Source: Salipiger bermudensis
GTDB lineage: Bacteria > Pseudomonadota > Alphaproteobacteria > Rhodobacterales > Rhodobacteraceae
Direction: 5' to 3'
Assembly (NCBI RefSeq): GCF_020171625.1
Contig: NZ_JAIUZY010000001.1
Location: 496,001-560,000 of the forward strand
Length of the DNA stretch: 64,000 nt
Shown here in pieces: positions 38,709 to 40,452 of the stretch. Below the pieces are notes generated by a model. It made no database searches and was not told where the DNA came from. It saw nothing but the letters and a program-made list of their open reading frames with translations. The position numbers and the translations under genes were made by a program. Each line of letters opens with the position of its first letter. Position 1 is the stretch's first letter.

Positions 38709-38750
38709 GGGTTTGGCGCTCCTGCGGGGGGCGTTGGTTGAGATTTTGGA

Positions 38751-38780
38751 GGGGCGGTGACCTGAGGTCGCCGCCCTTTT
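38751..38780 (+). terminator. Rho-independent terminator after eno
   Basis: GGGCGGTGACC-TGA-GGTCGCCGCCC stem followed by TTTT. Confidence 0.88.
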
Positions 38781-39089
38781 GCTGTGTTTCGGGGCCGGAG
38801 CTCGTTGGCCGTTAGCTCACTGTCGCTTGCGGCCCATCTGCAACATTCATGCACCTCGCAGTGTGGCGCGAAGCTCTGGTACGATCGGCGGGAGCTGACC
38901 TTCGCTTCGTCTTGGATGAACTGCGGCGATGTGCGAGTCGTAGGATGGCTATTTGAACCTCCGACACGTCGCAAAGCAGCACGTTAGACTATAAAAATAC
39001 ACAATGGCAGGTTACGCTATGCTGTGACGCGGCCTGCCCAGAAACGGCCGTTCTACGCAAGTGCAGATATGCACAGCCGGAGCGGTCAT
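38781..39089. other. Left non-coding flank of the low-GC island
   Basis: About 300 bases with no supported gene; GC content falls from left to right, ending in an AT-rich run (ACTATAAAAATACACAATGG near 38990). Small ORFs on both strands lack ribosome sites and family character. It may hold remnants of the acquired segment. Confidence 0.4.
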
Positions 39090-39473
39090 TTAGATAAAGA
39101 GGCTTTCGAGCGCCGATACAACAAATGCCTGTTCTTGCCGAGTGAGCGATCTGACTTCCTTTGCGAACGCTGCCAGCTCGCCTGCAAGGTGCGCGTCTAT
39201 AGTACCGGTTTTGGTTGCGCCCAGAACACCCAGCTTTTCTTCCTTTATCCGTATAATCTGCGAAAACGAGACTACAGACTTACCAGTGGGCGACTTAGGT
39301 AGACCCGGAATTTCTCCGTCATCCAAGACACAATCACCTTTGTATCCCGAGCCGGAGTTCAGAAAAAGAAACGCGAAAACGGTCTCGTTCTCGGTTCGTC
39401 CGAGGCAAATGTGAAATTTCTCCTTGCCGGCGATGGTCGAGTATAAGCGGATGATATCTCCCGCTTCATACAT
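39090..39473 (-). CDS. Putative toxin of a Panacea toxin-antitoxin pair (SH3-like, MazF/PemK-type candidate)
   Basis: 127 residues. The N-terminus (MYEAGDIIRLYSTIAGKEKFHICLG) has the Gly-Asp-Ile strand and lysine-flanked second strand seen in small SH3-barrel MazF/PemK-type toxins. It is followed by FAFLFLNS, a LPKSPTGKSVV loop and a C-terminal helical tail (LTRQEQAFVVSALESLF). I do not recognise the exact family; the toxin call comes mainly from context. Its ATG lies inside the last codons of the antitoxin gene (8-base overlap), implying coupled translation. Base composition is clearly lower in GC than the neighbours, suggesting acquisition. No membrane segment or signal peptide. Confidence 0.55.
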   Translation of the reverse strand: MYEAGDIIRLYSTIAGKEKFHICLGRTENETVFAFLFLNSGSGYKGDCVLDDGEIPGLPKSPTGKSVVSFSQIIRIKEEKLGVLGATKTGTIDAHLAGELAAFAKEVRSLTRQEQAFVVSALESLFI

Positions 39474-40056
39474 ACGATGAGTATTCTGCCAAGGTAGCAG
39501 CTTGCTCGAAATTTGGCTCCTCAAAAAGCAAGCCAAGCTTCATGGCATAGGCAGATCGTCCACCGTCTTCACGCCAAGCGTCGAGGTATGCGGGATCTTC
39601 ATGAGTGAGTCGCCGGATTTGGCTGAAGCCCAACGCCTGAACAACGCCAAGTGATTCAGTGAGAACCTCCATATCGCTTTCTGACAGGAATTCTTGAGGA
39701 ACCAATGCGTCATTAACGGGGAAGAAATGCTTGGTTGACCTGTTGCTAGGAACCGATTTCCAAGGCACTCCATGCAAACCATGGTCACGCATGGCCTTCG
39801 CATTCCCTTTAAGTAGGTCGTAGGCGAGCGAGGGGACAGGCCCGTGAAGCATCGCGCAGTAGTTGTCGTAGGTTACCGGCCTTCCCCATTCGTTTAGATG
39901 GTTACGATCTGCAAGGAACAACGTTTTGACTAGGTCATACTGCGACACGTTGCGCCCACGCTTCTTTGCTTCAGCCATGACGAAGTACAGAGCGGACACG
40001 ATGCGGTCCACGTTAGGCTTCATCTCAACATGTTCAGGGATAGCGTTGCTCATCAT
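39466..40056 (-). CDS. Panacea-domain (DUF4065 / SocA-like) antitoxin
   Basis: 196 residues. Helical Panacea core: KTLFLADRNHLNEWGRPVTYDNYCAMLHGPVPSLAYDLLKG (about residues 45–85) shows the diagnostic K-x-L-F-x-A-D ... G-R-P-V-x-x-D ... HGPVPS pattern. A less conserved C-terminal half (LTESLGVVQALGFSQIRRLTHEDPAYLDAW) completes it. Panacea proteins neutralise very diverse toxins by direct binding; Caulobacter SocA is a relative that also acts as a proteolytic adaptor. GAGG lies five bases before the ATG. It overlaps the downstream partner by eight bases, the typical antitoxin-first order. Confidence 0.82.
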   Translation of the reverse strand: MMSNAIPEHVEMKPNVDRIVSALYFVMAEAKKRGRNVSQYDLVKTLFLADRNHLNEWGRPVTYDNYCAMLHGPVPSLAYDLLKGNAKAMRDHGLHGVPWKSVPSNRSTKHFFPVNDALVPQEFLSESDMEVLTESLGVVQALGFSQIRRLTHEDPAYLDAWREDGGRSAYAMKLGLLFEEPNFEQAATLAEYSSYV

Positions 40057-40076
40057 TCGGACCTCATCGGTCGTTC

Positions 40077-40104
40077 CATATAGTAGAATCTAGCAGGTTT
40101 CCAA
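40077..40104 (-). promoter_or_regulatory. Promoter of the Panacea gene pair
   Basis: On the minus strand TTGGAA and TATATG are 16 bases apart, ending about 20 bases before the antitoxin start, so the leader would be very short. The surrounding DNA is AT-rich. Confidence 0.5.
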
Positions 40105-40398
40105 GATATGCGAAAAAAATTTAAGATGCTCCGTGCGCGCTGGGACAGCGTTGAGTTCTTGAGGCAAAACATAGTGCTCCTGGGGTGAATGTCCGCTCTG
40201 CAGTCGATTCCGTTCCTGCTTTGCCCATGGCGCCTAGTTCGGCTCTGGACCACAAGCGCCGACGAGCAGAGACATCTATTAAGCTGCAGCGACGAATCCG
40301 TTCTGAGAAAACCAGCCGTTGCTCCATTAGAGCTCGCACCGCTTTCAAAGTGTCTAGCAAGCTCTCCAAGCCAAGCCTCCAAACGACCGGCTCACACG
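40105..40398. other. Right non-coding flank of the low-GC island
   Basis: About 290 bases of intermediate GC between the TA promoter and the zapA terminator. A minus-strand frame across it is open but has no ribosome site or recognisable domain. No integrase, transposase or direct repeats were seen at either island edge. Confidence 0.4.
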
Positions 40399-40431
40399 AA
40401 AAAAGGCGGCGACCACCGGTCGCCGCCCCTC
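40399..40431 (-). terminator. Rho-independent terminator after zapA
   Basis: On the minus strand, GGCGGCGACC-GGT-GGTCGCCGCC is followed by TTTTTT. Nearly the same stem as the eno terminator at 38751. Confidence 0.9.
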
Positions 40432-40452
40432 CTCAACCCACACCAAAAGACC

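Follow-up and report, generated by a model that had tools for sequence, protein, structure and literature searches.

A mobile Panacea-linked operon of Salipiger bermudensis encoding a predicted MazF-fold toxin of a new branch

In a 64,000-nucleotide (nt) stretch of the Salipiger bermudensis genome (contig NZ_JAIUZY010000001.1, positions 496,001 to 560,000; hereafter the window), two overlapping genes encode a Panacea-domain protein and, directly downstream, a smaller protein that matches no family in the libraries we searched. The pair is a real, mobile operon of the PanAT type and represents a new branch of a published kind, not a new type. We infer its function and regard it as probable that the operon is a type II toxin-antitoxin system, in which a MazF-fold toxin, presumably an endoribonuclease, is held inactive by direct binding of the Panacea protein.

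Both genes lie on the minus strand. The Panacea gene (40056..39466) encodes a putative antitoxin, PanA, of 196 amino acids (aa), belonging to the SocA-like group formerly called DUF4065. The partner gene (39473..39090) encodes a putative toxin, PanT, of 127 aa, and the two share 8 nt (39466..39473). A preliminary description of this DNA had placed the two genes at the same positions, overlapping and on one strand, and its report of a low-G+C patch was also correct: the G+C contents of the Panacea and partner genes are 51% and 50%, respectively, compared with 66% for the window. The flanking genes, which from their translations we take to be eno and a zapA-like gene, have values of 68% and 70%. 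The ratio of nonsynonymous to synonymous substitution rates against the copy in Maritimibacter was 0.07 for the Panacea gene and 0.12 for the partner gene, indicating that both are under purifying selection; relative to the four remaining near copies, synonymous sites have reached saturation.

The 196-aa protein matched the Pfam family PF13274 (SocA_Panacea) with 60.6 bits, over the gathering score of 25.7, which supports its earlier assignment to Panacea/DUF4065. The domain spans residues 42-156. In the C-terminal tail (residues 173-196), 17 of 24 columns are invariant among six near homologues and 3 of 24 among all eight aligned rows. An AlphaFold2 model had a mean predicted local distance difference test score of 76.6, with low values in the tail, and a sequence search of the PDB with the Panacea protein returned no match.

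The 127-aa partner had no match in Pfam, NCBIfam, PADLOC, or PHROGs at expectation values (E) of up to 10 and is thus unclassified, as had been stated. When all eight toxin rows were scanned against Pfam and PHROGs, no match had E below 0.04, and a PDB sequence search gave one chance-level match with the toxin alone (E 1.1) and none with the toxin profile. The partner is confidently predicted to adopt the MazF fold, an SH3 barrel, in agreement with the MazF/PemK-type barrel suggested in the preliminary description. Structure alignments of the model to MazF extend to residue 112-116 and cover the helix at residues 94-106; the last helix (residues 112-126) falls largely beyond the aligned part. 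The C-terminal helical region, which the preliminary description could not assign to a familiar toxin family, is therefore unusual only in this last helix.

Toxin homologues were sought with the partner sequence alone, without Panacea. Single-sequence searches of plasmids, phages, genome contigs, and viral contigs found no relative; a two-row alignment with the Citreimonas relative recovered relatives that these searches had missed. Among 295 genomes of the family, the partner search matched two, the window's own and G047. In the genome collection, the two-row and eight-row alignments detected seven loci, of which one is that of G047; in addition, one viral contig holds the same Citreimonas gene with identical DNA. 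Matches were found in 4 of 385 genomes in the class-level search and in 2 of 398 in the phylum sample, both including the window's genome and G306. Three further viral scans returned only the Citreimonas and Brevundimonas contigs again. The Brevundimonas toxin as the query had no match in plasmids or phages, and a second genome of the order of G519 contained no relative (one of the two genomes of the order was positive).

Identity to the window toxin was 81% in Maritimibacter (L006), 66% in Oceaniovalibus (L007), 64% in a Pseudorhodobacter metagenome-assembled genome (MAG; L008), 60% in a Roseovarius MAG (L009), 54% in Citreimonas (L010), 30% in a Rhizomicrobium MAG (L011), 26% in Brevundimonas (L012), 25% in L016, and 21% in L017. 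The remaining relative, L015 (1501-1860), is 34% identical over the first 72 residues; its toxin gene is broken by a stop codon (TAG), and the Panacea gene upstream is intact.

All 10 distinct toxin relatives are immediately preceded by a Panacea gene on the same strand; it was recognized by reading and by alignment to the window Panacea protein (eight rows), not in each case by a Pfam scan. Homologues without Panacea, which the preliminary description had named as the finding that would speak against a pair, were thus 0 of 10. PanAT pairs are described in PMC8832971 as genes on the same strand, no more than 100 nt apart, and kept across species. The window's overlap of 8 nt recurs in five of the 10 relatives (L006-L010), L011, L012, and L017 overlap by 1-4 nt, the genes abut in L015, and a gap of 30 nt separates them in L016. 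Furthermore, toxin and antitoxin pairwise identities were correlated (r = 0.969; 10 pairs, comprising the window plus nine relatives, with L015 left out), a value reached in none of 5000 permutations, and r was 0.929 within the six near pairs. Such a correlation shows joint inheritance, not binding.

We then considered the candidate active site. Lys17, Lys19, His21, and Cys23 are found without exception in the 11 family rows (the window and 10 relatives) and alternate along strand 2 of the predicted model as K-x-K-x-H-x-C; the codons of Lys17-Glu18-Lys19, at the start of this strand, occupy 39417..39425 (minus strand). Column 40, at the end of strand 3 (codons of Asn39-Ser40, 39354..39359, minus strand), holds Ser or Thr in every family row (11 of 11) and likewise in each of the 11 other adjacent Panacea partners, from phages and plasmids, that were aligned. 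Among those other partners, whose sequences are very divergent, Lys19 is retained in six and His21 in none. In an hhalign register of 6.6% probability, Lys19 lies opposite the catalytic Arg of MazF, in the Arg-Pro motif of PemK, and Asn39-Ser40 lies opposite Thr-Ser. The catalytic pair of Bacillus subtilis and Bacillus cereus MazF is Arg25 and Thr48; in Mycobacterium tuberculosis, Lys replaces Arg in MazF4 and Ser replaces Thr in MazF7 (PMC7354611). Since the same exchanges occur there, Lys for Arg and Ser for Thr in the window toxin are compatible with a ribonuclease.

The same residues permit a different explanation, namely that the genes form a PanAT pair in which the MazF-fold partner, instead of being an mRNA interferase, uses the face on strand 2 to cut another RNA or to poison another target, as CcdB does gyrase. 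The invariance and alternation of the four residues, the lack of Arg at the MazF Arg position, and the weak likeness to PemK profiles all suit this explanation. It is nevertheless unlikely, considering that MazF4 also carries Lys at the Arg position (PMC7354611), that all 22 aligned rows have Ser or Thr at column 40, and that validated MazF-like PanTs blocked protein synthesis (PMC8832971).

Several points weigh against an endoribonuclease toxin neutralized by Panacea. The PemK family (PF02452) matched none of eight toxin-family rows at E of up to 10. The hhalign probability of the toxin family against PemK was 6.6% in one alignment; with PemK it was 13-46% for the family and 2.1-35% for its two subgroups, depending on grouping and direction. 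The profiles therefore give no firm toxin-PemK link, and because there was no match in the eight rows and hhalign reached 46% at best, the toxin is not filed as a member of PF02452. The assignment of catalytic residues is tentative, drawing on a weak alignment and a shared, predicted fold. The MazF fold is also used by toxins that are not ribonucleases, such as CcdB. Mirrored identities of toxin and antitoxin are also expected from shared descent. In addition, among 25 Panacea pairs tried, eight had putative toxins that were non-toxic in Escherichia coli, and in five the toxicity was not rescued (PMC8832971).

If the operon is a PanAT system with a ribonuclease toxin, the downstream gene would supply a MazF-fold protein, probably an endoribonuclease, that stops translation, and the upstream Panacea protein would bind this toxin directly and keep it inactive; a stand-alone Panacea can neutralize directly (PMC10440598). 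The conserved C-terminal tail of the Panacea protein, which is not confidently folded alone, probably helps and may adopt its fold on the toxin. Through overlapping translation, toxin and antitoxin would be produced in step. Upon loss of the antitoxin or sensing of a trigger, plausibly a phage, RNA cleavage by the released toxin would arrest the cell. Of these elements, the genes themselves, their association in all relatives found, purifying selection, the predicted MazF fold, the conserved Lys and Ser/Thr, and the cargo-site location described below come directly from the analysis; toxicity, RNA cleavage, neutralization by binding, the trigger, and a part in phage conflict are inferences.

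The location of the pair was also examined. Of 20 genomes of the genus, 17 have a gap of 90-348 nt between eno and zapA. In the other three, it contains the Panacea pair (window, 38709..40452; 1744 nt), a KAP-type NTPase gene (G088; 2046 nt), or an RTX/DUF4214 gene (G1109; 2762 nt). These results indicate that the gap is a cargo site. Its eno-side edge carries a terminator-like stem after eno (38747..38781, plus strand; by eye also at L072 and L073), and its other edge carries one after the zapA-like gene (40408..40427, minus strand; by eye also at L072). The eno terminator is kept at the edge in the window, G088, and G1109, as judged by eye, and the zapA-side terminator in the window and G088. 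In the window, 381 and 396 nt flank the pair within the insert, leaving no room for a full integrase gene.

Phage genes accompany several relatives. The Citreimonas pair adjoins a portal gene, and genes for an HNH protein and a tail terminator lie farther along; tail fiber and Rz-like spanin genes lie upstream of the Oceaniovalibus pair. In Brevundimonas, the locus belongs to a contig predicted to be viral, together with a repressor-like gene, and in Rhizomicrobium an integrase gene lies ~500 nt from the pair. Judged by eye, the copies of Maritimibacter and Roseovarius are located among seemingly ordinary chromosomal genes; L008, L015, L016, and L017 were left out of these context scans. The prophage and cargo-site settings are circumstantial evidence for an anti-phage role. 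A more far-reaching proposal, which we consider rather doubtful, is that the toxins form a separate MazF-fold family whose K-x-K-x-H-x-C face has a non-interferase substrate or chemistry, and that Panacea senses a phage component, making the pair an anti-phage module carried by prophages and at the eno-zapA site.

It is also conceivable that Panacea acts mainly as a sensor or regulator in phage conflict and that its partner is a non-toxic SH3 accessory protein, in which case the pair would not be a toxin-antitoxin system. A sensor role for Panacea is favored by the authors of PMC10440598, but the presence of Panacea beside 10 of 10 partner homologues and the predicted toxin fold of the partner make this improbable, as does the combination of a broken partner gene and an intact Panacea gene in L015, which is expected of a toxin and is a single case. 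An arrangement of the SocAB type (type VI), in which the toxin is passed to ClpXP by the antitoxin and acts by blocking the replication clamp, is highly improbable: Panacea is the SocA domain and the window protein weakly matches the NCBIfam SocA model (NF047745; 27.3 bits), but this is below the cut-off of 190 bits, and the genes beside L022-L025 encode 238-249 aa, not 127, with no match to the toxin-family profile (best E 0.5). SocB was dropped as the toxin's family on the same grounds of length and profile. L022 and L023 are over the SocA cut-off and L024 and L025 under it, and the SocB identity of the neighbors is taken from their position.

Next, the partners of other Panacea genes were surveyed. 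Panacea was found in 44 of 295 family genomes, and 30 of the 62 matches listed were examined. Three of the 30 downstream genes matched the toxin-family profile (window, Citreimonas, and L095). L095 (992-1375), located downstream of Panacea in a different genome of the family, is a remote member (E 3e-9); having been found via Panacea, it is not among the 10 counted relatives. Six loci (L088, L096, L099, L100, L101, and L107) matched the phage-type group G2 with E of 3e-25 or better; this partner type also occurs in Klebsiella and Vibrio phages. By eye, 16 loci had membrane-type, SocB-like (about 240 aa), or other neighbors, two were without a recovered Panacea frame, and three were without a downstream frame. 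Every toxin relative found thus has Panacea, whereas Panacea has many partners, matching the published picture.

Distant Panacea partners from plasmid and phage records were aligned for group comparison by hhalign. Pseudomonas phage Sirocco (L074), in which the next same-strand gene begins 430 nt past Panacea, was left out of the partner counts, and L083 (a near copy of L077) and two further Sinorhizobium matches were left out, the former from the partner alignment. The 10 intact family rows gave 96-97% probability against group G4 (Sinorhizobium, Megaera, and Serratia phage), dropping to 40% with only the six near rows. G4 gave 96-97% against G3 (Bacteroides, Segatella, and Porphyromonas phage), and G3 gave 86-92% against G2. 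Direct links were weaker: 66-73% for the family against G3, 2-8% against G2, and 0.4% against the Marinitoga virus partner. As a control, 35 comparisons with column-shuffled copies of G2 were all at or below 1%. PemK against G2, G3, and G4 gave under 1%, so the MazF kinship of these cousins depends on the hhalign chain. The cousins had no match at E of up to 0.1 in Pfam (0 of 8 scanned) or NCBIfam (0 of 6, L095 included), with L075, L079, and L081 outside these scans; the Porphyromonas phage partner is annotated as MazF-like in its record. The non-tailed Vibrio phage 10N.239.311.H11_PE001 (Vinavirales; L076, 31-958) carries Panacea with a partner of the MazF-like group G2. In PMC10440598, viral Panacea systems are predicted in tailed phages only.

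A promoter-like stretch, TTGGAA-16-TATATG (40077..40104, minus strand), resembles elements at L006 and L007 and, more weakly, L009. The preliminary description had assigned an AT-rich promoter to the toxin gene itself. This stretch lies upstream of the Panacea gene and would therefore serve the whole operon. A promoter consensus scan gave no site, and the element is proposed from its likeness to L006, L007, and L009. A search of seven upstream regions for a shared operator yielded only the promoter-like element, in three regions and, more weakly, in one more. In L007, the element reaches into the presumed GTG start codon; translation there must therefore begin at a later ATG.

With this pair, the Panacea network gains a compact example, a stand-alone Panacea with a confidently predicted MazF-fold toxin, together every time they were found. 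Family searches overlook this branch and the scanned phage and plasmid cousins because no model in the searched libraries matches them; a profile built from the present alignments would allow both to be counted. The toxin mechanism is directly testable through the conserved Lys and Ser/Thr.

Compared with known systems, the operon shares a Panacea-domain antitoxin with the type VI SocAB system of Caulobacter but differs in that its Panacea protein is below the SocA cut-off and that SocA-type neighbors are about twice as long as its toxin and unrelated by profile. The window toxin differs from MazF/PemK/Kid (PF02452) in lacking a Pfam PemK match, in having Lys for Arg and a shorter loop between strands 1 and 2 (in the hhalign alignment), in a last helix largely beyond the aligned part, and in being paired with Panacea instead of MazE; Panacea is the upstream neighbor both in the window and in each of the 10 relatives, and no MazE was seen beside the toxin, for which no MazE profile search was made. 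The unnamed partners in Serratia phage OS31, Sinorhizobium, Megaera, Bacteroides, and the Porphyromonas phage likewise lie directly downstream of Panacea and keep Ser/Thr at column 40; they differ in retaining the K-x-K-x-H-x-C motif only in part. The literature found on Panacea or SocAB contained no description naming this toxin branch; the datasets of PMC8832971 and PMC10440598, which were outside this search, may hold it as a cluster.

The closest published counterparts are two of the Panacea pairs of Kurata et al. 2022, in which nine new pairs were validated (PMC8832971). The PanT toxins of Pseudomonas moraviensis and Bifidobacterium ruminantium are EndoA/PemK/MazF-like by HHpred, have no CDD hit, and block protein synthesis (PMC8832971). 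Consequently, the earlier proposal of a new Panacea-toxin pairing is not supported. MazF/PemK is among the commonest folds in the Panacea network (PMC10440598). In PMC8832971, the antitoxin-first order is the commoner one (943 versus 325), whereas PMC10440598 reports the toxin first for 78% of its Panacea nodes. The two published systems differ from the window branch, to which they may be related, in that their toxins are validated; like it, they combine a Panacea antitoxin, encoded first, with a MazF-like toxin missed by domain databases.
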